Origin: Candidatus Methanoplasma sp.
GTDB lineage: Archaea; Thermoplasmatota; Thermoplasmata; Methanomassiliicoccales; Methanomethylophilaceae
DNA: 11,964 nucleotides
Reading direction: 5' to 3'
NCBI GenBank assembly: GCA_031271555.1
Contig: JAISVN010000158.1
Coordinates: forward strand, 1-11,964
Both the position numbers and the translations under genes were made by a program. Shown here in pieces: positions 250-9,592 of the stretch. Below the pieces are notes generated by a model. The model saw nothing but the letters and a program-made list of their open reading frames with translations. It was not told where the DNA came from and searched no databases. Every line of letters starts with the position of its first letter. The first letter of the stretch is position 1.

Positions 250-287
250 TAAAAAATAAGTGGCATTGCTGCCACTTTAAGATTTTT
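250..287 (-). terminator. Hairpin with U-tract ending the nitrogenase-like operon
   Basis: A perfect 8-bp stem with a 4-nt loop lies at 258-277 (AAGTGGCA / TGCCACTT). Read on the minus strand it is followed by a run of six T (256-251), directly behind the TAA stop of the substrate-binding protein at 279-277. A second T-run (282-287) lies on the plus-strand side, so the structure could work in both directions. U-tracts are the main termination signal in archaea; the stem may add to it or protect the 3' end. Confidence 0.7.
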
Positions 288-1533
288 TATTATATTCCTC
301 GGCAGTTATGATGAACTGTCCGTCGACTTTGAAATCGATGCCGTATATGTCCATCAGCTTCTGATGCCATTCATCGGCGAACCCGTCTTCGAACAGTTCA
401 GGATACATGAACTCTGCCATGTACGCTATTCTAAGGGTCTGGGGCAGCGTGAAATCTATGACACAGAATTTGCCGTTCTTGTATGCGTTCATTGGTTTTA
501 CGACCTCTCCATACATCTCGTACAAGTTTTCGCGCACTTCAGGAGAGGATCCGTAACCCATTGTGAATATCCTTATTATGTACTCTGGATCGTAGTTCAG
601 TATCCAGGTGCCGTTATCCGCATTAAGCATCTTATAATTGTTCCAGTCAGCGATGGTCTTCCCGCCGGAGGCCTCTAAAGCCTTGGTATAGTCGTTGCCG
701 ATGCCCGCTGCAGCATATAATGCGAACCACACGAGTGCAGTGCGGCGGTCGGCATCCTCCAGACTGGCGACCTTATCTTCTACTGCCGAAAGCATATCAT
801 GGCACCAGTCGGCATACTTCTGTGACCGCTCCTCGCAATCCACAAGGTATCCCAGGGTCAGAGCGCTGGATGAACTTTCCTCGCCGTCCATCCCCAGTAT
901 GGGGATTATATCGATGCCAGCTCTGTTGTATAGTGCTCTGACAGATGCATCGATTACTCTGGATTCAAGATTGCCTATTATGACCGCATCAGGGACCCCA
1001 GCGGCAGTGATCCCTTCGAAATCCGCAGGGTCGCTCGTGGTCAGGGTCTTTGCCCCTTCAAAGGATTTGAACAGGATACTGTCTTCTTTGGTATAACCTA
1101 TGATCTTCGAATCATCCAGTCCGACGGCAAGCGCCATCAGTTGAGGGGAATTGGCGAGTACCACTATCTTATCCAGAGGCCACACGACATTGGACGTATC
1201 GTAATTTCCGTCAATGTACCAGACCGTCAGACCATCTTCTCGTGAGAGCATCTTCCTTACTTGTTCGACATCCCTCTGATCAACCGTCCCGTCATTGTTT
1301 GCGTCACAGAATGCGGTCTCATCCACATCTCCAACTATGCATTCCTCTATGTATCTGATATCATCTTCATCGATGACACTGTCTTCGTTGGCGTTGCCGT
1401 ATACCTGCAATTCGCCCCCGTAGTCCTGTATCTTCTTGGAATCATTGCCGCCGTATAACATCACGACCGCCGCCACTCCGGCAACGGCCAAGATCAAAAC
1501 GGCCAATACTGCGATCAGCTTATTCTTTTCCAT
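277..1533 (-). CDS. FeCT-type ABC transporter substrate-binding protein with dockerin-like calcium domain
   Basis: This 418-residue protein is predicted to bind a metal complex outside the cell and pass it to an ABC importer of the iron-siderophore/cobalamin/heme class. Residues 5-28 form one hydrophobic signal or anchor segment. Residues 44-98 form two EF-hand-like loops of dockerin type I spacing: N47, N49, D51, D55, D58 and D77, N79, D81, D85, D88. Residues from about 100 to the end match the helical-backbone binding-protein fold (PF01497/TroA-like), including IVVLANSPQLMALAVGL, PDAVIIGN and a C-terminal stretch with MYPELF. No lipobox cysteine is seen after the hydrophobic segment, so anchoring by the uncleaved helix is likely. 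It lies 37 bp after the NifK-like gene on the same strand, with AGGA at 1542-1545 spaced 8 nt from the ATG. No permease or ATPase gene is present in the window. The ligand cannot be told from sequence; co-transcription suggests it is substrate, cofactor or metal source for the reductase. Confidence 0.85.
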   Translation of the reverse strand: MEKNKLIAVLAVLILAVAGVAAVVMLYGGNDSKKIQDYGGELQVYGNANEDSVIDEDDIRYIEECIVGDVDETAFCDANNDGTVDQRDVEQVRKMLSREDGLTVWYIDGNYDTSNVVWPLDKIVVLANSPQLMALAVGLDDSKIIGYTKEDSILFKSFEGAKTLTTSDPADFEGITAAGVPDAVIIGNLESRVIDASVRALYNRAGIDIIPILGMDGEESSSSALTLGYLVDCEERSQKYADWCHDMLSAVEDKVASLEDADRRTALVWFALYAAAGIGNDYTKALEASGGKTIADWNNYKMLNADNGTWILNYDPEYIIRIFTMGYGSSPEVRENLYEMYGEVVKPMNAYKNGKFCVIDFTLPQTLRIAYMAEFMYPELFEDGFADEWHQKLMDIYGIDFKVDGQFIITAEEYNKKS

Positions 1534-1570
1534 TTTATCATTCCTGTCCTTGGTTCTTTTCTACTGTCTG

Positions 1571-2821
1571 TCATAACATCGGATTCACTATGCGGTCCAG
1601 TATGTACATAGCACCGCTCGGCCCCAATACGGGAGAAGGCCGGAAATCCGTATTCATGATGGAAGGGAATGAGATGTCTATCCCTCTCCTGCAATTGCCT
1701 GATGCCTGTTCCAGCTGTGCTGTGTTCCCATCACAAAGGATGACATCCAAACGTCCGCGTCTTTTTTCGTTAAGACAGCCCGATAGGTTGTTTTCAGTGA
1801 GAAACATGGACAATAATTCGTCGGCGCCTTCGTATCCCGTATCGTTGATCATCACCGATGCCGGCACCATAGATAGCGACTCAAAGAGCCATTTGGTCAA
1901 AGGATACGTAATAGAGGGATCGGCCTCTATTGCAAAGGATCTCCCATGGACATCGTTCCTTCCGGACAGCATGCATTCGTAAGCTCTTTTCCGGAAGCGG
2001 TCGACATATTCCTTCGCCTTGGAAGGATCTTTTCCAGTCATCTGGGCAACAATCCCTATCATATCGTCGGTGGCATCGAACCCGACGGGAGAATAACCCA
2101 AGGATATGGATTCGATCCCATACCTTTCCAGATAGAATGATGCTGTCGTCCTGGCATATTCCGGACAAAGGACGATGTTATACTGTGCGTTTACGGACTC
2201 CCTCATCTCCTCTATGGAGGATCCGGCCCCCACGCAGCATATTACCTTCAGGCCCATGAGTTCGAAGATGGTCCTGAACTCTTCAACCGCCGTTCTCCAA
2301 TCCTTTGTCAGGATATTCAGCCCAAGAATATTGACGGAATCTTCGATCGGTGACGATCTTTCAGAGGATAGTTTCTCAATGACCCTTGCAATGGTCAGGT
2401 CCATGCCGTCGCTGAACGGCCCAGATAACACATGGGCATCAAGGATGATCGCTTTGTCGCTGATTCCGCATTCTTCGATAGCCTTGCTGCAATCATCCCC
2501 GATGAGAGAGGCTCCCGGCGAACATACAACAGCAACGAATGAGTTATTTTTCGCTTTGACGAAATCCAAAGCGTCCCTCAACTTCTCATATGCGCCGTGG
2601 ATGTAATCCATGGACAGTACACCGGTGCATGGTACCCTCGGATATCCGCGGTAGTACGGCATTCCCACGCCGCATCCCGGTTCCGGCCTGGGGTATGATT
2701 TATTGGAAAGCACGGTCAGGTTCTTTCGACATCCGTCCGGTCCGTGGAGCAGCACTGCCGCATCCGATATGCCTTCGATCGCCATCACAGCTCCGATGAA
2801 CCCATCCGGTCCGGTCAGCAT
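1571..2821 (-). CDS. Nitrogenase-like NifK/NifE-family subunit (short beta-like partner)
   Basis: A 416-residue member of the nitrogenase component 1 oxidoreductase family (PF00148), predicted to pair with the NifD-like half of the upstream fusion protein. Family marks are HGPDGC with C31, VPC at C65, and VVCSPGASLIGDD with C100 in front of the conserved IGDD turn. NIVLC at C219 is followed by a helix and YGIES, and then GYSPVGFDATDD, as in NifD/E/BchB proteins. By hand alignment C31 and C100 match NifK Cys95 and Cys153, while the first NifK cluster ligand (Cys70) has no counterpart because the protein begins at about that point. C65 matches a non-ligand cysteine of NifK. The ATG sits inside ATGCTGA, where it overlaps the stop of the fusion gene by 7 bp, so the two are translationally coupled. 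An in-frame TGA just upstream excludes a longer start. It is shorter than true NifK (about 460-520 residues). It is not a molybdenum nitrogenase beta subunit; NifN- or BchB-like alternatives cannot be excluded. Confidence 0.85.
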   Translation of the reverse strand: MLTGPDGFIGAVMAIEGISDAAVLLHGPDGCRKNLTVLSNKSYPRPEPGCGVGMPYYRGYPRVPCTGVLSMDYIHGAYEKLRDALDFVKAKNNSFVAVVCSPGASLIGDDCSKAIEECGISDKAIILDAHVLSGPFSDGMDLTIARVIEKLSSERSSPIEDSVNILGLNILTKDWRTAVEEFRTIFELMGLKVICCVGAGSSIEEMRESVNAQYNIVLCPEYARTTASFYLERYGIESISLGYSPVGFDATDDMIGIVAQMTGKDPSKAKEYVDRFRKRAYECMLSGRNDVHGRSFAIEADPSITYPLTKWLFESLSMVPASVMINDTGYEGADELLSMFLTENNLSGCLNEKRRGRLDVILCDGNTAQLEQASGNCRRGIDISFPSIMNTDFRPSPVLGPSGAMYILDRIVNPML

Positions 2822-4935
2822 GTCGGATCACCCCATGATCTCCACCCTTCTGTAGGATTCGCTATAAGCGTATTGCATATGTAATCCAGATAATTCATCG
2901 ATGCGAAATGCGTCAGAGATTCCTGTGCGACATTGGCACATCTCCTTTCTCCCAGCAGGGACATGTTCACGTCTCTGATCACAATATCCGGATCATCCAT
3001 TCTTATGGCTGATATTATCTCAGGAATTGTCATTCCTGTTATGAAATCGAATCTGCCTTTGTATTTTGAATGGAAAGCCGATGATGCCGACCTCATTGCC
3101 AGAACATATATCTTCCCGATCTCGGCACCCGCATCCGTGAGACACTCCAGGATCCAATCTATTCTGGAGGATGAGCTGATCAGCATGTCGATGCGTTTGC
3201 CAGATATAATTCCTGAAACGCGTTCGGTCTTTGCTTTGTATTCCCTCTCCAGTTCTGAGACAAGGGATGCAGTATCTCTGCTGATTAATCCCCCGATCTC
3301 CTGAACCCATTCTATTGTTTCCGAGAACCCACGCGGCAAGGGCGAACCGGTCACCTTCATACCCTTTGCCTCAAGGAGCCCCTTCATCATATTATTGGTA
3401 TCAGAATCTTCCACGAGGATGTTGATCCTGTTCCTTTTTGCTTTGACCACATCTTCAAGATTGCAATCCTCGAAGATCTTGGTCCCCATCTCCAGCCCAA
3501 GTCTTGAAAGAATGTCCGTGAGCCAGGATTCGTTCAGGCCTCTGTTGAATCCCATGAAGTTATCGCCGACAAGATTCACCCTCATAACGTCCGGCTCTGC
3601 ATCCCCGTCTATAAGCCCGATGTATTGCTTTATGACCTCGATGCGCCCTTCCTCGCTGTCGCCTGACAGGTTCCCGTCGGCATGTATGATCATCACGCAA
3701 ACGTCTTTATGATCTTTCTCAAAAGATTCCGCCACGCGGTCAACATGCTCTCCGGTTATGCCCGAGACACAGGTGGTTATAACGAGAATGACTTTGTTCC
3801 CCTTTCCGGCCAGTTCCTCCAATTTCCTCCTGAGGTCTCTTTCCCCTCCGAAAACGGAAGAATTGTTGCTCATATCGGTACATGTGATGTTGTTCCTCAT
3901 GATCGGACGGATGGCAGGATTCGTAGCGATATCGGAAAGGTAGTGGCTGTCCTGCGTATGGCACATCACATAACCGCAGCTTCTTGGTCCATGGATCACT
4001 ACGGGGATGTCCATTATCCTTCCTGCCCCGAATGCCGCTCCTCTCGATGCACATGATGACATCCCGAGTTGTTTGGAGGTCTGGCAGGATCTTTTCGGTT
4101 CGAATCCTCCCTTGGAAGGACTGCGTCCGCTCAGAAGCCCCTCCAGCTGATCATCGGTTAGAGGGCGGGGGTGATAAAGCCGCCCTTTGCATTCTGCCAA
4201 TGAGATGATGTCATCGGCGATCTTAGAATACTGCCTTGACGGAACTGAATCAGGGAACATCTCAGATACCGTTCTCATCTCCATTTCGGCTACAGAGAAA
4301 AGATCCGATCTCGGGATCGATGCCACGATCGGTATGCCGATGGCCTCGGCGAATCTTTCGACAATGGACGGCTCATTATCGAGTCCGCGCTCATTGAATA
4401 TTATTCCGGCCGCCCTTGGTCTCGCAGAACCGAAGTTCAGCATTCCTCTCAATATGTTGTTGGCGGCATATATCGACATGAACTCGCCGGATGTCACGAT
4501 ATATATCGCATCCGCATTCTCCGATCTCATCGGGACTGCGAACCCGCCGCATACAACATCCCCGAGGACATCGTAGACAGTGATATCGCTTGATGACTCC
4601 CCAACGCCGAGCCGGCTGAGCGTATCGAAGGTCGTAAGTATTCCGCGGCCCGCACACCCTATTCCGGGTTCCGGTCCGCCCGCCTCTATGCATGATATCC
4701 CCATTACGCCCGTCATGACCACATCAGACAGTTTCCTTTCCGGCAGGGGTGTGGATCTAACATAATCCAAAACCGTGGTCTGTCTTCTGCCTCCGATCAA
4801 AGGTCTCGTGGAATCGTGTTTGGGGTCGCAGCCTATATGCATGACCTTCATTCCCTTGGACGCCAATGCGTAAGAGAGGTTGGAAGATGTCGTTGATTTT
4901 CCGATTCCTCCCTTCCCATAGATCGCCATCTTCAT
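2815..4935 (-). CDS. Fused nitrogenase-like protein: NifH-like iron protein joined to NifD-like subunit
   Basis: A 706-residue fusion that joins the reductase and one catalytic half of a nitrogenase-like enzyme. Residues 1-267 are a complete NifH/BchL/CfbC-type iron protein. The P-loop GKGGIGKST is at 7-15 and the DPK switch at 37-39. GGPEPGIGCAGRG contains cluster ligand C94 and the R97 equivalent of the NifH ADP-ribosylation site. YDVLGDVVCGG contains cluster ligand C129, and the family's C-terminal PLTDDQLEGLL is present. A short linker (about 270-282) leads to a NifD/E-like domain (284-706). There SCASRGAAFG (C295), IHGPRSCGY (C320), CTDMSNNSSVFGGERDL (352-368) and TTCVSGITGEH (C389) align with NifD Cys62, Cys88, the VFGG segment and Cys154. 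A NifD-type cofactor cysteine is not seen. The gene starts the operon, overlaps the NifK-like gene by 7 bp, and has no Shine-Dalgarno but a TATA-like box about 26-35 nt upstream, consistent with a leaderless mRNA. The substrate is unknown. Ordinary NifH and NifD are separate proteins, so the fusion is the striking point. Confidence 0.9.
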   Translation of the reverse strand: MKMAIYGKGGIGKSTTSSNLSYALASKGMKVMHIGCDPKHDSTRPLIGGRRQTTVLDYVRSTPLPERKLSDVVMTGVMGISCIEAGGPEPGIGCAGRGILTTFDTLSRLGVGESSSDITVYDVLGDVVCGGFAVPMRSENADAIYIVTSGEFMSIYAANNILRGMLNFGSARPRAAGIIFNERGLDNEPSIVERFAEAIGIPIVASIPRSDLFSVAEMEMRTVSEMFPDSVPSRQYSKIADDIISLAECKGRLYHPRPLTDDQLEGLLSGRSPSKGGFEPKRSCQTSKQLGMSSCASRGAAFGAGRIMDIPVVIHGPRSCGYVMCHTQDSHYLSDIATNPAIRPIMRNNITCTDMSNNSSVFGGERDLRRKLEELAGKGNKVILVITTCVSGITGEHVDRVAESFEKDHKDVCVMIIHADGNLSGDSEEGRIEVIKQYIGLIDGDAEPDVMRVNLVGDNFMGFNRGLNESWLTDILSRLGLEMGTKIFEDCNLEDVVKAKRNRINILVEDSDTNNMMKGLLEAKGMKVTGSPLPRGFSETIEWVQEIGGLISRDTASLVSELEREYKAKTERVSGIISGKRIDMLISSSSRIDWILECLTDAGAEIGKIYVLAMRSASSAFHSKYKGRFDFITGMTIPEIISAIRMDDPDIVIRDVNMSLLGERRCANVAQESLTHFASMNYLDYICNTLIANPTEGWRSWGDPTC

Positions 4936-4950
4936 GAGGCATGGATTCGG

Positions 4951-5020
4951 AAAATGATTATTAAAATATTATTAAATTATTAATAATTATTAAGATTGAA
5001 ATCTATTTTTATTATTAACA
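4951..5020 (-). promoter_or_regulatory. AT-rich promoter of the nitrogenase-like operon with five ATTATTAA repeats
   Basis: The sequence TTAAAATATT at 4961-4970 lies 26-35 nt ahead of the ATG on the minus strand and can serve as the archaeal TATA box for a leaderless message. ATTATTAA (TTAATAAT in promoter orientation) occurs five times, starting at 4957, 4968, 4976, 4986 and 5011. Two central copies are part of a perfect 14-bp palindrome (AATTATTAATAATT, 4975-4988). Low sequence complexity explains part of this. The even spacing of 8-11 bp and the palindrome make a repressor-binding array plausible. Confidence 0.5.
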
Positions 5021-5210
5021 TCAATCCGAAAAGCAGGAATCGGCCCTCTCCGGATATTCGTTCTTATATTGACGTATCTGGATATACATCTTTAGAGATT
5101 CATGATTACTCCATACACATGCAATTTATTCACAGGATCAATTAATAAAAAAAGCAAAATGGCAACCATATCATAATGAGGCGGTTCAAACAAAATGAGT
5201 CATATGGCTG
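5021..5210. other. Intergenic stretch, no gene recognised
   Basis: Only very short reading frames occur here and none has a convincing start signal. An AT-rich patch (5138-5154, AATTAATAAAAAAAG) could be a plus-strand TATA box for transcription beginning near 5165-5175, that is, toward the inverted-repeat-bounded element that follows. I see no tRNA, no CRISPR repeat and no transposase remnant. Confidence 0.4.
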
Positions 5211-5516
5211 AACTCTAACTTCAGAAATCGAGGCGCGATGGTTTTCTATCCCATGCAGAAACTCCTGTCATCAAATTCACCTGCATGAGGTTTTTCCGGT
5301 GCGGGAGAATGTATATGCGGTCATGTTCCATCGGGTACATCGTAGGATGTGAAGCGTATTGGTGGTCCACCATGGTTTGGAATAAAGTCATGGTAAAAAG
5401 AAGGAAGGTCTCTGAGTGGGAGGAGGGAACGCCTAACTCGATGGGATGGTCATGGGGGCGCAGCCCAAAGGCGTAGCATGAGGTATGACGTATGCCCCAA
5501 TTTCAAAGTTAGAGTT
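5211..5516. repeat. About 306-bp element closed by an 11-bp inverted repeat; possible structured RNA
   Basis: AACTCTAACTT at 5211-5221 is the exact reverse complement of AAGTTAGAGTT at 5506-5516. Pairing continues inward after a small internal loop (GAAAT 5224-5228 with ATTTC 5500-5504, then G and GGC with GCC). Inside are further potential stems. CCCATGCAG (5250-5258) pairs with CTGCATGAGG (5281-5290) with one bulge. ACATC and GATGT flank a GTAG tetraloop (5337-5350). CTATCCCAT (5246-5254) pairs with ATGGGATGG (5441-5449) with one G-U pair, competing with the first. The base composition is mixed and no frame codes a recognisable protein. No direct target-site duplication is visible. It could be a non-coding RNA whose ends pair, on either strand, or a small non-autonomous transposon relic. 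Signal recognition particle RNA was considered because of size, but its conserved motifs are absent. Confidence 0.45.
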
Positions 5517-5546
5517 AAAACGACGAAAAAAATGTAAGCCAGATGG

Positions 5547-5854
5547 AAAAATGGTGTCAAGTGGTGATAGTACCCCCCCTTCTGTTTCAGGCAGCATTCA
5601 ACTATGCACTCTACCCGCCGGTCGCGGGCGGTCATCCCGGCTGTATGAGCTTGCTCCGATGAGGTGTCGCCGTTTCACCATATCCTTGGGAACGTCACTG
5701 TCAGCAGATCATCCTTAACCAAGGCTGTGTCGTTTCTGGGCCCTTGCCAAAGCTCTCGCCTTACCGGATTTCCCGGTTCATCTTGCCCTGTGGAGGAGGG
5801 AAGTTCCTCAGCTGGATCTAGTCCTACCGTCGGCTGCCCTTCATCTCTTGACAC
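5547..5854 (-). ncRNA. rnpB: RNase P RNA, archaeal type A, with 3' U-tract
   Basis: The catalytic RNA of ribonuclease P, which matures tRNA 5' ends. Read on the minus strand, the ends pair as GTGTCAAG (5854-5847) with CTTGACAC (5561-5554), giving an 8-bp P1 helix. Between them lie the universally conserved elements in the right order. GAGGAACTTCC (5809-5799) is the CR-I-like strand of P4. GGTGAAACGG (5679-5670) and GGAGCAAG (5657-5650) match CR-II/III and CR-IV. ACAGAA followed by a G-run (5585-5573) is CR-V and the second P4 strand. The enclosed RNA is about 301 nt, in the usual archaeal size range. Five U residues (5551-5547) follow as a terminator. CR-I differs somewhat from the common GAGGAAAGTCC form. 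The gene name rnpB is used for the RNA in general. Confidence 0.88.
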
Positions 5855-5871
5855 TCATAGTATGCAGGATT

Positions 5872-5886
5872 CGTATTTTTCTTTAG
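5872..5886 (-). promoter_or_regulatory. TATA-like box for RNase P RNA
   Basis: On the minus strand CTAAAGAAAAATACG lies about 20-30 nt ahead of the P1 helix of RNase P RNA. AAAAATA (5880-5874) has the position and composition of an archaeal TATA box, with purines upstream in the place of the TFB recognition element. Assigned by position and composition only. Confidence 0.45.
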
Positions 5887-5905
5887 CGGTCCGAGAGGCA
5901 ACATC

Positions 5906-5927
5906 GCATCTTTGACGGAAAAGATGC
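5906..5927. other. Hairpin between RNase P RNA promoter and tetR
   Basis: GCATCTTT (5906-5913) and AAAGATGC (5920-5927) form a perfect 8-bp stem with a 6-nt loop. No U-tract follows on either strand, so it is not a standard terminator. It sits between divergent transcription units and may be a binding site or part of an untranslated region; the role is unknown. Confidence 0.35.
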
Positions 5928-5940
5928 CTTCTTCCATAGG

Positions 5941-5970
5941 AATTAATTAAATATGTTTAAAACATGTTAA
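5941..5970 (+). promoter_or_regulatory. tetR promoter with overlapping palindromic operator candidates
   Basis: AATTAAATATG (5945-5955) lies about 25-35 nt ahead of the ATG at 5980 and fits a TATA box for a leaderless message; no Shine-Dalgarno precedes the start. Overlapping it are ATGTTT-A-AAACAT (5953-5965) and the perfect palindrome AACATGTT (5961-5968). A palindrome over the TATA box directly before a TetR-family gene suggests autorepression. Confidence 0.5.
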
Positions 5971-5979
5971 GTAAAGTAT

Positions 5980-6531
5980 ATGCATCAAGATAAAGTTGAT
6001 GAGATAGTTCAAAAAACAGTAGAACTGTTCCATTCAACAAAAGGCAGAGGCATGACCACCCGAAGGATAGCCAAGAATGCTGGAATAAATCCCGCTATGG
6101 TGAATTATTACTTCGGATCGAAAGAAGGCTTACTGAGAGCAGCGGTCTCCGCAATGAACGGAAACCATCCGAGAGATGCAGCTTACGCCTACGACGGTTC
6201 GAGAAAGGCCATGTTCGATTTTCTTGTAGGTATATGCGAGATTACAATGCTTTCTTCGGAAATGGGGATAAGCAGGGATTCCGCATCATTCTCAAAAGAT
6301 GTCATGGACACAGCATCAAAGCTTGTTGAAATGAAGACGGCGCATAAGAAACAAGGATTGCCCGAAGAAGGGGATGCCGCATCCGCATTGGGGGTCGCAT
6401 GCCTGCTGATGACCGCATCAACGGATCCGGAGAGGTTCCTGCGATATTCCGGAGTCGATATGCATGCAAAAAACCAGCTCAGAGCCCTTGTATCCGAGCA
6501 GCTGGATTTACTGCTTGAAGAGACCCTTTGA
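5980..6531 (+). CDS. TetR-family transcriptional regulator
   Basis: A 183-residue DNA-binding regulator. The N-terminal helix-turn-helix is plain: MTTRRIAKNAGINPAMVNYYF at about residues 25-45, followed by the typical GSKEGLL. The rest (about 55-183) is the helical ligand-binding and dimerisation domain, which diverges between families and gives no clue to the ligand. The length is normal for the family. The ATG is preceded by an AT-rich box and palindromes but no Shine-Dalgarno, pointing to a leaderless, autorepressed gene. It is followed 59 bp later by the rrf2 gene on the same strand, with its own promoter-like box between them. Its target is unknown; candidates are itself and the neighbouring non-coding region. 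Confidence 0.85.
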   Translation: MHQDKVDEIVQKTVELFHSTKGRGMTTRRIAKNAGINPAMVNYYFGSKEGLLRAAVSAMNGNHPRDAAYAYDGSRKAMFDFLVGICEITMLSSEMGISRDSASFSKDVMDTASKLVEMKTAHKKQGLPEEGDAASALGVACLLMTASTDPERFLRYSGVDMHAKNQLRALVSEQLDLLLEETL

Positions 6532-6537
6532 TAAATA

Positions 6538-6590
6538 CTACTGTGATTCAGTAGGAAATATTTTACGTATGCACAGCAGTAGTGGGTGTT
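6538..6590 (+). promoter_or_regulatory. rrf2 promoter with CTACTG/CAGTAG repeats
   Basis: AAATATTTTA (6557-6566) lies about 25-34 nt before the ATG at 6591 and fits a TATA box. Just upstream is the inverted repeat CTACTG-N5-CAGTAG (6538-6554), and a second CAGTAG stands at 6577-6582, 28 bp after the first, downstream of the box. Sites on both sides of a TATA box suggest autoregulation by the Rrf2 protein. Alternatively the inverted repeat is the 3' hairpin of the tetR message. Confidence 0.45.
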
Positions 6591-7034
6591 ATGCTCATAT
6601 CTGCCAAAGGCCGCTATGCACTTAGGTGTATGTTGGACATCTCTCTGAACGGAACGGAATCCAATGTTAAACTGAAGGATATAGCAGAAAGGCAGGATAT
6701 TCCGATAAAGTACCTTGAGCAGATAATCTCCTCGATCCAAAAGGCCGGATTCGTGAAAAGCGAGAGGGGTCCGAGCGGAGGATACCGTCTTTCTAGACCT
6801 CCCGAAGAATACACCGTGGGAATGATAATAAAACTGATCGAAGGGGACACGGTCCCGGTCTCATGCCTCACTGGCTCCAACAGCTGCGAGAGGTCGGACC
6901 AGTGTGTATCGATGATACTCTGGAAGAAACTCAATGATGCTGTGAACTCAGTTCTTGACGGAACGACCCTCGCAGATATGATCGACTGGAGTTCCAAAGG
7001 CCGGTTGATAGAGATCGGGATACCCGATTACTGA
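6591..7034 (+). CDS. Rrf2/IscR-family regulator with three Fe-S cysteines
   Basis: A 147-residue winged-helix regulator of the Rrf2 family. MLISAKGRYALRCMLDI at the start matches the first helix of IscR, and DIAERQDIPIKYLEQIISSIQKAGFVKSERG with GGYRL covers the recognition helix and wing. C92, C99 and C105 (SCLTGSNSCERSDQC) stand where IscR holds its [2Fe-2S] cluster (C-x6-C-x5-C here, C-x5-C-x5-C in E. coli), so Fe-S sensing is likely. I chose ATG 6591 over the upstream GTG at 6582 because it matches the family's first residues and sits about 25-30 nt behind a TATA-like box. The gene converges on cysK, and the two coding ends overlap by 7 bp. Control of the neighbouring iscS-iscU-cysK operon is inferred from this context and from family knowledge. 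Confidence 0.88.
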   Translation: MLISAKGRYALRCMLDISLNGTESNVKLKDIAERQDIPIKYLEQIISSIQKAGFVKSERGPSGGYRLSRPPEEYTVGMIIKLIEGDTVPVSCLTGSNSCERSDQCVSMILWKKLNDAVNSVLDGTTLADMIDWSSKGRLIEIGIPDY

Positions 7035-7951
7035 AACATCTCGGATGACAGATACCTCTCGCCGCTGTCCGCTGCGATGAAGACAATGGTCTTCCCTTTG
7101 TTCTCCGGCAGTTTTGCAAGCCTGACGGATGCGGCAAGCGCAGCCCCGGCCGATATGCCGACAAGCAGACCTTCCTTCTTTGCCGATTCCCTGCCGAATG
7201 CGAGTGCCTCATCTCCAGGTATCGCCACGATCTCATCTATCAGACTCACGTCAAAGTTCTCCGGCACGAAGCCTGCGCCTATCCCCTGTATCTTATGCGG
7301 GCCCGCTTTGCCGCCTGAAAGGATGGGCGACTCCGCCGGTTCGACGGGCACGGTCTTTATTCCTGAGTTTTTCGACTTAAGATACCTGGCGGTGCCAGTG
7401 ACGGTCCCTCCGGTCCCTACCCCGGCAACGATGATATCCACCTTTCCGTCGGTGTCCTCCCATATCTCCGGGCCCGTGGTTAGTTCGTGATACTTTGGAT
7501 TTGCAGGATTTGTGAACTGCGACAGTATTACGGCTCCTTCGATGCTGCTGCGCAACTCTTCCGCCTTGGCTATCGAACCCCTCATCCCGTCTTTCCCGGG
7601 CGTAAGGACGAGCTCCGCCCCATATGCTTTCAGAAGATTGCGGCGCTCCAAGGTCATGGTCTCAGGCATCGTCAGTATGAGCCTGTACCCTTTGGAGGCG
7701 CAGATGGAAGCAAGCCCGATCCCGGTGTTGCCTGAAGTGGGTTCTATTATAACGGAACCTGTTCCGATGAGTCCCTTCTTCTCGGCATCATCCAGCATAG
7801 AGAATGCGATCCTGTCCTTCACGCTGCCGCTGGGGTTCCTGGATTCTATCTTCGCAACGATCCTGGCATCCAGGCCGTGCACTTTCTCTATATTCCTGAG
7901 CCTCAGCAAAGGCGTCCTGCCGATGAGTTCCGTTATATTCTCATGTATCAT
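7028..7951 (-). CDS. cysK: Cysteine synthase, PLP-dependent O-acetylserine sulfhydrylase type
   Basis: This 307-residue fold-type II PLP enzyme makes cysteine from an activated serine and sulfide in the cytosol. NPSGSVKDR carries the PLP lysine at K45, TSGNTG at 72-77 binds the substrate carboxylate, QFTNP is at 145-149, and GTGGT at 179-183 holds the PLP phosphate. The C-terminal VGISAGAA segment is also present. Length and motif spacing are normal for CysK/CysM. The start is placed at ATG 7951, four bases after the iscU stop, because MIHENITELIGRTPLLRL is the usual N-terminus. A longer frame back to 8017 would add 22 residues with no family match and would overlap iscU. It is the last gene of the iscS-iscU-cysK unit, so it probably feeds cysteine to the desulfurase. 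Whether it uses O-acetylserine or O-phosphoserine cannot be settled by eye. Confidence 0.92.
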   Translation of the reverse strand: MIHENITELIGRTPLLRLRNIEKVHGLDARIVAKIESRNPSGSVKDRIAFSMLDDAEKKGLIGTGSVIIEPTSGNTGIGLASICASKGYRLILTMPETMTLERRNLLKAYGAELVLTPGKDGMRGSIAKAEELRSSIEGAVILSQFTNPANPKYHELTTGPEIWEDTDGKVDIIVAGVGTGGTVTGTARYLKSKNSGIKTVPVEPAESPILSGGKAGPHKIQGIGAGFVPENFDVSLIDEIVAIPGDEALAFGRESAKKEGLLVGISAGAALAASVRLAKLPENKGKTIVFIAADSGERYLSSEMFQ

Positions 7952-7955
7952 GCGA

Positions 7956-8405
7956 TCAGTCTTCGGTGTGCAGATCTTCGTGGTGGCTGTCTTCGAGATC
8001 CTCGACAGGTTTCTCAAGGCCTTCTATCTTGATGCCTTTCTTCTCTGCATAGTCCCAAAGGGCTGCGCGGACAGCCTCTTCGGCAAGGACCGAGCAGTGC
8101 ACCTTGACCGTCGGCAGGCCGTCAAGAGCCTCCATGACGCTTTTGTTGGTCAGTTTAAGCGCTTCGTCTATGCTCTTTCCCTTTATCAGTTCGGTGGCCA
8201 TGCTGCTTGTCGCGACCGCAGCCCCGCATCCGAACGTCTTGAATTTCACGTCTTTTATTATGCCGTTGTCATCGATGTCGAGGTACACCCTCATGATGTC
8301 CCCGCATTTTGCGTTCCCAACGGTTCCGACACCGCTTGCGCCTTCGATCTCTCCGACATTCCTGGGGTTGGTAAAGTGGTCCATTACCTTCGCGCTGTAT
8401 TGCAT
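7956..8405 (-). CDS. iscU: Fe-S cluster scaffold protein IscU/NifU N-terminal type
   Basis: A 149-residue scaffold on which [2Fe-2S] or [4Fe-4S] clusters are built from IscS-derived sulfur. The three ligand cysteines are C34 (AKCGD, with the conserved Asp two residues later), C60 (FGCGAAVA) and C104 (KVHCSVLAEEA, with the preceding His). The C-terminal tail beyond about residue 125 is acidic and His-rich (EDLEDSHHEDLHTED), which is unusual for IscU and could bind metal. The start is ATG 8405: the strong ribosome site AGGAGGT (8418-8412) is 6 nt from it, but directly abuts the earlier ATG at 8411, and MQYSAKVMDHF is the family's usual beginning. The iscS stop lies two bases upstream, so the pair is coupled. 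Confidence 0.93.
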   Translation of the reverse strand: MQYSAKVMDHFTNPRNVGEIEGASGVGTVGNAKCGDIMRVYLDIDDNGIIKDVKFKTFGCGAAVATSSMATELIKGKSIDEALKLTNKSVMEALDGLPTVKVHCSVLAEEAVRAALWDYAEKKGIKIEGLEKPVEDLEDSHHEDLHTED

Positions 8406-8407
8406 TC

Positions 8408-9592
8408 TCATACCTCCTTATTCTTAATGGCGTCCTCATATAACGGGGACATTGATCTGAGTTTGGAGACGACCTCTTTCAGAGCATCTACCGTATAATC
8501 CAATTCTTCTTTCGTTGTGAACTCCGACAGGGTCATCCTGAGGGAGCCGTGGGCTATCTCGTGCGGAAGCCCTATTGCCAGGAGAACATGCGACGGGTCA
8601 AGCGAACCCGATGCGCATGCGGAACCGGTGGAGGCGGATATGCCCTTCATATCGACCATCATCAGCATTGATTCTCCTTCTATGTACCTGAAACTTATGT
8701 TGACGTTCCCGGGAAGCCTTCTGTCCTTGTCGCCGTTGAGCCTCGAGTACGGTATCTCGCCGAGTATCCGGTCGATCAGGTAGTTCCTCATCTCCCTTAT
8801 CCTGTCAGTACTCTCCGCCATCTCTTTCTTGGAAAGTTCCGCCGCTTTCCCGAACCCCACTATGCCGGGAACGTTCAGGGTGCCGGCCCTTCTCTTCCTT
8901 TCATGAGGCCCTCCGTGTATGAGGGGGGTTATCCTTGCACTGTTCTTCATGTACAGCATACCGACGCCTTTGGGGCCGTGTATCTTGTGCGCACTGGCGC
9001 TCAGGAGGTCGATGTTGTCCTTCTCCACGTCTATCGGGATGTGGCCGAACGCTTGGACCGCATCGGTATGGAAAATTATCCCGTTGGAGCGTGCGATCTC
9101 GCCTATCTCTCTTATAGGCTGTATCGTGCCTATCTCGTTATTCGCGTATATCACAGAGATAAGTATCGTGTCCGGGCGTATGGCCGCCTTCAGCTCATCG
9201 AGTTTCAGGATCCCTTTTTCATCCACGCCTACGAATGTTATCTCGAAACCGTTGCCGGCAAGGAACTCGCATGTCTCCATGACCGCATGGTGTTCGATAG
9301 CAGAGGTGATGATGTGCCTGCCTTTGTCCTTCTTCATGAAGGCGACGGACTTTATCGCCCAGTTGTCCGACTCGCTGCCGCCGGATGTGAAGTAGATCTC
9401 ATTGTCCTTAGCATTGATCAATCCGGCTATCGTCTTCCTTGCTTTCTCGCATGCCACATTGCATTCGGCACCGAAGGAGTGTATGCTGGAAGGGTTGGCA
9501 TACATTTCTGTAAGGTAAGGCATCATGGCCTCAAGGACATCTGGTTTCATCATTGTGGTTGCGGCATTGTCAAGATAAATGGTCTTAGGCAT
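8408..9592 (-). CDS. iscS: Cysteine desulfurase IscS/NifS
   Basis: A 394-residue PLP enzyme that takes sulfur from cysteine as an enzyme-bound persulfide and hands it to IscU. YLDNAATT is at the N-terminus, and EHHAV holds H101, which stacks on PLP. DAVQ holds D177, and SASAHKIHGPKG holds the PLP lysine K203. The persulfide cysteine is C326 in GSACASGSLDPSHVL, with the SSGSACxS-type loop intact. Length and motif order are those of group I desulfurases. It heads an operon with iscU and cysK. The start ATG at 9592 is preceded by an AT-rich promoter with repeated TTCAYAC half-sites. The iscS gene name follows the context next to iscU; NifS is the equivalent name in nitrogen fixers. Confidence 0.95.
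   Translation of the reverse strand: MPKTIYLDNAATTMMKPDVLEAMMPYLTEMYANPSSIHSFGAECNVACEKARKTIAGLINAKDNEIYFTSGGSESDNWAIKSVAFMKKDKGRHIITSAIEHHAVMETCEFLAGNGFEITFVGVDEKGILKLDELKAAIRPDTILISVIYANNEIGTIQPIREIGEIARSNGIIFHTDAVQAFGHIPIDVEKDNIDLLSASAHKIHGPKGVGMLYMKNSARITPLIHGGPHERKRRAGTLNVPGIVGFGKAAELSKKEMAESTDRIREMRNYLIDRILGEIPYSRLNGDKDRRLPGNVNISFRYIEGESMLMMVDMKGISASTGSACASGSLDPSHVLLAIGLPHEIAHGSLRMTLSEFTTKEELDYTVDALKEVVSKLRSMSPLYEDAIKNKEV

Follow-up and report, generated by a model that had tools for sequence, protein, structure and literature searches.

A recurrent NifH-NifD fusion of Methanomassiliicoccales as a candidate ATP-driven [4Fe-4S] reductase of imported metal chelates

The subject of this work is a gene of Candidatus Methanoplasma sp. 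in which a nitrogenase-type iron protein (NifH) and a NifD-like catalytic subunit are joined in a single polypeptide, together with the operon which it forms with the genes of a NifK-like subunit and a putative substrate-binding protein. The operon lies within the 11,964-bp stretch of DNA analysed here (henceforth the window), which constitutes the entire contig C117 of genome G000, an assembly that is 68.6% complete. All three genes are encoded on the minus strand (Table 1). A sequence-only reading of this DNA had proposed a complete iron protein and a NifD-like subunit within one chain, a NifK-like gene overlapping it by 7 bp and, thereafter, a binding protein. Pfam recovers both domains within the 706 amino acids (aa) of the fusion, the coordinates of the two following genes agree with this proposal and the third product is clearly recognisable by its fold. 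Residues 1-269 of the fusion match Fer4_NifH with 300 bits and residues 295-664 match Oxidored_nitro with 148 bits, while the NifK-like subunit yields an Oxidored_nitro match of 168 bits. In the AlphaFold monomer model of the fusion (predicted template modelling score, pTM, 0.68) the domains are predicted with confidence apart from residues 282-292, the sole run of three or more residues for which the predicted local distance difference test score (pLDDT) falls below 50.

Table 1. Position of the fusion operon and its parts within the window
Feature	Coordinates	Strand	Basis or details
NifH-NifD fusion protein, 706 aa	2815..4935	-	open reading frame (ORF) and Pfam domains; model pLDDT 88.4
Iron-protein domain, residues 1-269	4129..4935	-	P-loop GKGGIGKST; cluster cysteines C94, C129
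Flexible linker part, residues 282-292	4060..4092	-	predicted structure
NifD-like domain, residues 295-706	2815..4053	-	C295, C320, C389
NifK-like subunit, 416 aa	1571..2821	-	single cluster cysteine C31; 7-nt overlap with fusion gene
Substrate-binding protein, 418 aa, metal-chelate (Peripla_BP_2) fold and dockerin-like module	277..1533	-	fold match; model pLDDT 89.0
Intergenic region upstream of the fusion, up to a divergent TetR gene	4936..5979	.	promoter scan

The gene of the binding protein starts 37 nt downstream of the NifK-like gene. By sequence its product is recognised weakly (Peripla_BP_2 with 21 bits, below the cut-off of 27.5; TIGR04281 with 29.5 bits versus a cut-off of 325). By fold it is clear (Foldseek E 6.6e-15; template modelling score by target 0.68-0.71 in the top three rows, which are solute-binding proteins of metal-chelate type), and its modelled structure matches the binding-protein fold used in FecCD/BtuCDF-type import. 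A Dockerin_1 domain at residues 48-96 was absent from the sequence-only reading; several Asp/Asn positions of this dockerin-like module form invariant columns in an alignment of 28 sequences. The contig end cuts off whatever follows the binding-protein gene, leaving a partial membrane-like ORF of 77 aa at positions 3-233 which shows no FecCD likeness and is not supported as a FecCD permease. No other NifD/K/E/N-like gene was found on the window contig.

The fusion is no peculiarity of this one assembly. In a set of 199 genomes, comprising the window's own and its relatives, the fusion search gives matches in 132, and at least 80 of the 199 contain a same-frame H-D match extending from residue 3 or earlier to residue 600 or later (counted by hand from the match list, the window's own genome included; some rows contain a stop codon). 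On account of these full-span matches we regard the fusion as real. A protein search for related fusions returned 3,259 matches, and most of the source names among the 120 listed are Candidatus Methanomethylophilaceae or other Methanomassiliicoccales archaea. An assembly error or a single-genome oddity, either of which the sequence-only reading had considered fatal to its proposal, is ruled out by the recurrence across the relatives' genomes and by these protein matches. Many genomes harbour several paralogues, genome G018 even three within about 17 kb, and a second copy is present in the window's own genome on contig C49; a scan of the genome contigs with the whole fusion confirmed no close relative. 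A K gene lies within 1.5 kb of 53 out of 55 same-frame H-D pairs. The iron-protein motifs are intact in 91 of 98 single fusions, and of the remaining seven, the N-terminal P-loop stretch is absent from five, whereas the strict pattern of the first cysteine goes unmatched in two. The neighbourhoods were drawn from partly incomplete genomes, and the loci are related rather than independent of one another. One fusion (L050) was missed by ORF calling and recovered by profile.

The equivalents of the NifD residues C62, C88 and C154 are cysteines in all 27 D-domain sequences compared, and when a broader set of 47 fusions is aligned, the first of them is present in at least 90% and the other two are invariant. 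In the K subunits the equivalent of NifK C95 is likewise a cysteine in 18 out of 18 sequences, whereas the position of C70 is occupied by Asp in 16 and that of C153 by Pro in all 18. Of the three cysteines which a P-cluster takes from each of NifD and NifK, K thus retains one, the C95 equivalent. The FeMo-cofactor ligands are missing as well, with a cysteine at the position of NifD C275 in none of the 27 sequences and, at that of H442, most often Arg, Asp or Lys. Since the ligands of both metal centres are absent, chemistry relying on [4Fe-4S] clusters only, and not nitrogen fixation, is to be expected. The remaining set of three plus one cysteines equals that of BchYZ, the likeness to the ligand layout of dark-operative protochlorophyllide oxidoreductase (DPOR) and chlorophyllide oxidoreductase (COR) being one of residues (27/27 D, 18/18 K). 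From it, a single [4Fe-4S] cluster bridging the subunits and an open site for the substrate are predicted in place of P-cluster and FeMo-cofactor. Further cysteines of K are frequent in the family (C65 in 83%, C377 in 94%), and we speculate that these might face the substrate. The identity of the fusion as a true nitrogenase was rejected on the missing ligands and on the presence of classic unfused nif operons elsewhere in four relatives. These operons (L101, L102, L103, L104), in which NifD/K/E/N-like genes stand in tandem, occur in genomes which also carry fusions; NifH is present in three of the four stretches.

For the placement within the nitrogenase superfamily, nif and bch references were taken from named plasmids and nif and CfbD references from the relatives. 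One CfbD fragment (CfbD_L061, 53 aa) was dropped from the first tree; the later D/K tree omits this fragment, the likely misread CfbD_L062 and seven near-duplicate or redundant rows. In this quick tree, whose Bch and Treponema branches are long, the fused D domains (24 rows) and the K partners (18 rows) each occupy one side of a branch, both with a Shimodaira-Hasegawa-like approximate likelihood ratio of 98, apart from NifDE, NifKN, Bch and CfbD. The single sequence of the methylthio-alkane reductase (Mar) subunit MarD used (R. rubrum, 306 residues) joins NifDE at 98/92; with MarD added, the fusions stay together with moderate support (88/87), and a grouping of MarD with six bacterial-type fusions is rejected (approximately unbiased test, p-AU 0.006). 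Judged from these sequences, fused D and K appear to form clades of their own outside the known clades sampled, i.e. NifDK, NifEN, BchNB, BchYZ, CfbD and, for D only, MarD, the comparison with Mar being confined to this subunit, with MarK and other group IV/VI enzymes outside the sample. A position of both domains inside a known clade, which the sequence-only reading had named as a refutation of its proposal, is not what the trees suggest for the clades sampled.

With DPOR and COR (BchLNB, BchXYZ) the fusion system shares an ATP-driven iron protein acting on a heteromeric catalytic part, a ligand set made up of three cysteines from one subunit and a single ligand from its partner (a cysteine in BchZ), and the lack of a P-cluster or FeMo-cofactor ligand set. 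It differs from them in that the reductase is fused to D, or duplicated in tandem before it, in forming separate clades and in often adjoining importers. The best Bch catalytic model gives 36 bits for D and 66 bits for K, far below the cut-offs of 490 and 509, and K is locally similar to BchB. CfbCD belongs to the same superfamily, and CfbC provides the best iron-protein family score of the fusion (321 bits versus a cut-off of 402). CfbD, however, is a single unfused catalytic gene, whereas the fusion system possesses a separate K subunit. D and K of the window reach 24 and 28 bits on the CfbD model (cut-off 268.4), and the fusions in general remain below 50 bits (cut-off 268). CfbD itself exceeds the cut-off in 41 of 61 genomes, where it is encoded separately; on these scores and this separate occurrence an identity with the F430 enzyme CfbCD was rejected. 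In the window's own incomplete genome CfbD was not found, and a CfbC-like gene (336 bits, cut-off 402) lies beside CfbA on another contig. Mar is described in part of PMC12552129 as containing a P-cluster and an [Fe8S9C] cluster; from this enzyme (MarHDK) and group IV Nfl the fusion system differs in that the Mar cluster ligands are missing and MarD groups with NifDE.

A variant form with two iron-protein domains preceding D (NifH-NifH-NifD) is represented by 19 of the 120 listed proteins, 16 of them 1,079-1,106 aa in length; six of the 120, three of them tandem, were checked by Pfam. D-domain matches of this sister form were obtained in two bacterial metagenome-assembled genomes, from a member of the Myxococcota and from Fibrobacter sp. 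UBA1313. The Myxococcota copy, the only tandem-form protein for which a host is named, contains both iron-protein domains; the Fibrobacter contig starts inside the gene and leaves one of them visible. In most of the 19 tandem proteins both copies keep the P-loop and cluster-cysteine motifs by a strict pattern, while some miss one motif pattern in one copy. All fused iron-protein domains group together with moderate support (88/74). Within their tree, the first copies make up one starred clade and the second copies, together with the Fibrobacter domain, another, from which it follows that the iron protein was probably duplicated only once in this branch. The Myxococcota contig carries, on one strand, the tandem fusion, K, a TonB receptor, a binding protein and a FecCD permease, with an ATP-binding cassette (ABC) ATPase beside these genes on the opposite strand. 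Its TonB receptor attains 208 bits on a siderophore subfamily (cut-off 223.5) and at most about 33 bits on heme types.

Linkage to transporters was analysed for 37 loci with at least 11 kb of flanking sequence, taken from the 55 same-frame H-D pairs and including no bacterial locus. A FecCD-type permease is located within 6 kb of the fusion in 24 of them, against an expectation of about 12%; the underlying FecCD density (500 matches over approximately 53.6 Mb in 31 genomes) derives from rounded genome sizes summed by hand, and a few of the 37 loci stem from genomes outside these 31. An ABC ATPase lies near the fusion in 27/37 loci. The binding-protein gene, which the sequence-only reading had proposed to check for constant adjacency, is not always adjacent; a narrow profile found one in 12/37 loci. 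Because the loci are related, the fusions were grouped at 55% identity, whereupon a permease accompanies most members in 9 out of 13 clusters and any member in 11 out of 13. In the clade nearest to the window (47-52% identity) it lies within 3 kb of the fusion in all nine loci examined (L040-L048; for L040 and L047 only the nearest-clade copy was counted). The four unfused nif operons examined in the relatives have no FecCD permease in the surrounding 17-18 kb. On the plasmid pTS1 of Treponema saccharophilum (L064, 10638-18294) a divergent binding protein is followed by unfused NifH, D, K, binding protein, FecCD-type permease and ATPase genes; its D and K show the same pattern of three plus one cysteines, with long branches which leave their kinship to the fusions unsure. 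The earlier suggestion that the binding protein points to import is strengthened by the FecCD linkage and by the Treponema and Myxococcota loci, while the accompanying guess of a tetrapyrrole, corrinoid or metallophore is compatible with the data.

Other neighbours vary between clades. Near some fusions there are flavodoxin or FMN-reductase genes whose products could feed electrons to the enzyme. In nine loci (L053, L056, L070, L073, L075-L077, L086, L088) a conserved block consists of an FMN reductase, an ABC-2 exporter and a 240-aa protein that has no Pfam match, and most of these loci have another ABC pair too. In L081, L083 and L085 the fusion-K pair stands beside genes of a CobD-like aminotransferase, CbiB, CbiZ and CobS, with a dCTP deaminase and a TRM5-type gene on the other side. 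A corrinoid as the sole substrate was considered and set aside, the occurrence of CbiB/CbiZ/CobS in three loci, RACo in one and a CbiX-type gene in one being judged near chance. In the window itself, genes of an Rrf2-type regulator, cysteine synthase, a NifU/IscU scaffold and a NifS desulfurase (6582-9592) lie near the operon and show no clustering with the neighbours of other fusions. A bacterial-type promoter scan of positions 4800-6000 remained at chance level.

Of the 55 H-D pairs, eight are interrupted by in-frame amber codons and one by an internal opal codon; as stop-flagged loci were chosen on purpose, this proportion is not to be read as a rate. Four of the eight ambers fall into the linker, among them that of the second copy in the window's own genome (L038, contig C49), where H at 2892-3716 and a downstream D in the same frame belong to a second H-D-K set. 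In the other four (L048, L079, L094, L095) a TAG lies inside the D domain at differing positions, which is consistent with near-neutral insertion of pyrrolysine. The conserved ORFs of these loci terminate with TGA in 276 cases, TAA in 51 and TAG in 12, and against this stop usage the amber excess (7 of 8 amber codons tested) corresponds to a p value of 5e-10. Three of the four linker-amber cases, including L038, have no start codon between the amber and the first cluster cysteine of D. Amber tolerance is described for Ca. M. alvus in a section of PMC4153887. Reading these codons as pyrrolysine is, from the sequences, the simplest account. Since the window genome encodes PylS and L038 offers no start codon ahead of that cysteine, a pyrrolysine-containing linker is likely in this copy.

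Taken as a whole, we propose, at roughly even confidence for and against, that the fusion and K constitute a two-component, ATP-driven, [4Fe-4S]-only reductase of imported metal chelates which has a DPOR/COR-like cluster layout and represents an independent lineage. This proposal builds on what can be read from sequence, namely domains, conserved motifs, ligand pattern, separate clades and transporter linkage, and from these we infer the cluster, the electron path, the substrate class, the coupling of reduction to import and the dimer geometry. The NifH domain, as a dimer, would receive low-potential electrons, perhaps from ferredoxin or flavodoxin, and ATP hydrolysis would drive them to a single [4Fe-4S] cluster with three cysteine ligands from D and one from K, from where they would reach a substrate within the D/K cavity. 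This substrate would most likely be a metal chelate, either a siderophore-like complex or a metallotetrapyrrole of heme or corrinoid type, which is taken up through the genetically linked binding protein and ABC importer of FecCD type, with the TonB receptor adding to the route in the Myxococcota case, and which is reduced for release or conversion. Reduction of a tetrapyrrole ring would follow the chemistry of the relatives, while the signals from receptor and binding protein would fit a siderophore-like complex whose metal is reduced. The fusion would hold the reductase at its partner. Should the enzyme assemble as (HD)2K2, as its relatives do, the single fusion would contribute two iron-protein chains and hence one dimer per tetramer, and the tandem form four chains. 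One chain of the bacterial branch could in principle supply a whole iron-protein dimer.

Several observations weigh against this proposal. No permease is seen within the window, whose contig ends just past the binding-protein gene, and 13 of the 37 loci have none of FecCD type within 6 kb. In one clade of five loci a permease is present in one, the fusions being flanked by housekeeping genes and, in three, by cobamide-assembly genes; in another clade of 12, ABC-2 exporter genes flank the fusions, yet a FecCD permease is found in eight of these as well. The count of ABC ATPases includes those of exporters. Any single permease linkage is weakened by the richness of these genomes in FecCD genes, as the 31 relatives contain 3 to 43 permeases per genome of about 1.2-2.8 Mb, and the importers may feed something other than the fusion enzyme. 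With regard to the metal centre, the fold of the D domain is as close to MarD and NifD as to DPOR, and NifB exceeds its cut-off in 28 of 33 such genomes. The sequence-only reading had remarked that no nifB lies nearby; this holds for the window contig, and the window's own incomplete genome gives no NifB match either, but it says little in view of these 28 genomes, and the absence of NifB as proof of a missing cofactor was dropped for this reason. According to the relevant part of PMC12176620, methanogens that lack nitrogenase cannot do without NifB, which is probably involved in the activation of methyl-coenzyme M reductase (MCR). Because it probably serves this purpose too, its presence does not decide on the type of cofactor.

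Among the alternatives, an exclusive use of tetrapyrroles, in which the enzyme would, like DPOR/COR, reduce a double bond within the macrocycle of a heme, corrinoid or chlorophyll derivative taken up from outside, for salvage, remodelling or iron release, appears unlikely. It would agree with the cysteine pattern of BchYZ, with the local similarity of K to BchB and with the presence of solely [4Fe-4S] clusters together with tetrapyrrole sites in DPOR and CfbCD, as stated in a portion of PMC12552129. The CbiX-type chelatase in one fusion cluster, the CbiB, CbiZ, CobS and CobD-like genes of the three related loci and the occurrence of heme-binding proteins among the fold matches of the binding protein point in the same direction. 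However, corrinoid genes stand beside few of 41 loci, which is near chance by estimate rather than computation, the sole TonB receptor scores as siderophore type, and neither subunit falls within the Bch clade, whose branches are long.

Unlikely too, in our view, is an ATP-powered chelate reductase acting on the metal centre only, which would free iron (or cobalt or nickel) from siderophores of a potential too low for ordinary reductants. The PDB fold matches of the binding protein, in which the siderophore binders YiuA, FepB-type and CeuE come first and heme binders lower in the list, argue for it, as do the affinity of the TonB receptor to the siderophore type and the wealth of FecCD permeases. 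Yet the receptor score stays under the family cut-off, less costly reductases generally suffice, the iron of anoxic guts is often present in the ferrous state, and we know of no nitrogenase-superfamily enzyme acting as a metal-chelate reductase. Quite unlikely is, furthermore, a biosynthetic reductase producing a modified cofactor or metallophore for export, to which the transporters would be secondary. In its favour, ABC-2 type exporter genes (matches of one query in 16 loci) and the conserved 240-aa protein that has no Pfam match (10 loci) occur around one clade of fusions; against it, no NRPS-type (non-ribosomal peptide synthetase) family was present among the selection of flanking genes scanned, and importer parts recur across clades. 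A nitrogenase-type or Mar-type enzyme with a NifB-made 8-iron cluster, to which the frequency of NifB and the position of MarD and NifEN chains as top fold matches of the D domain might lend credit, is very improbable given the missing P-cluster and cofactor ligands, the affiliation of MarD to NifDE together with its rejected grouping with bacterial-type fusions, the expectation of NifB in methanogens, probably for MCR activation, and the separate position of unfused nif operons in the four genomes examined.

The fusion as such is not new, contrary to what the sequence-only reading had implied. In the parts considered here, PMC4153887 mentions a fused nifH/nifE gene of Ca. M. intestinalis as a positional marker next to an origin-recognition box, and PMC11237513 one high-confidence NifH-NifD/E fusion in Methanomassiliicoccales besides composite and split forms in Methanosarcinales and Methanomicrobiales. 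Both fusions have the same architecture and come from Methanomassiliicoccales, and these parts give one mention each, without function, ligands, transporter link or tandem form. In the literature searched, with subscription papers outside its scope, nothing was found on the tandem form, on the ligand pattern, on a link to transporters or on a function.

In known nitrogenase-like enzymes, the corresponding parts of PMC12552129 and PMC12518044 describe a separate iron protein which associates transiently with its partner. The fused and tandem forms hence provide a natural experiment on whether the two have to dissociate fully in each electron transfer. More tentatively than the enzymatic proposal itself, we suggest that a branch of the nitrogenase superfamily may have become part of nutrient uptake, as a very low-potential, ATP-driven reductase of imported chelates which was often duplicated for different ligands in gut-type methanogens. 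The iron protein would have become part of the catalytic polypeptide, forming a covalent dimer on D in the bacterial branch, and a freely diffusing reductase would be dispensable. If true, this would to our knowledge be the first uptake function in the nitrogenase superfamily, with a bearing on how the iron, nickel and cobalt required for methane formation are acquired by methanogens of the rumen and gut.

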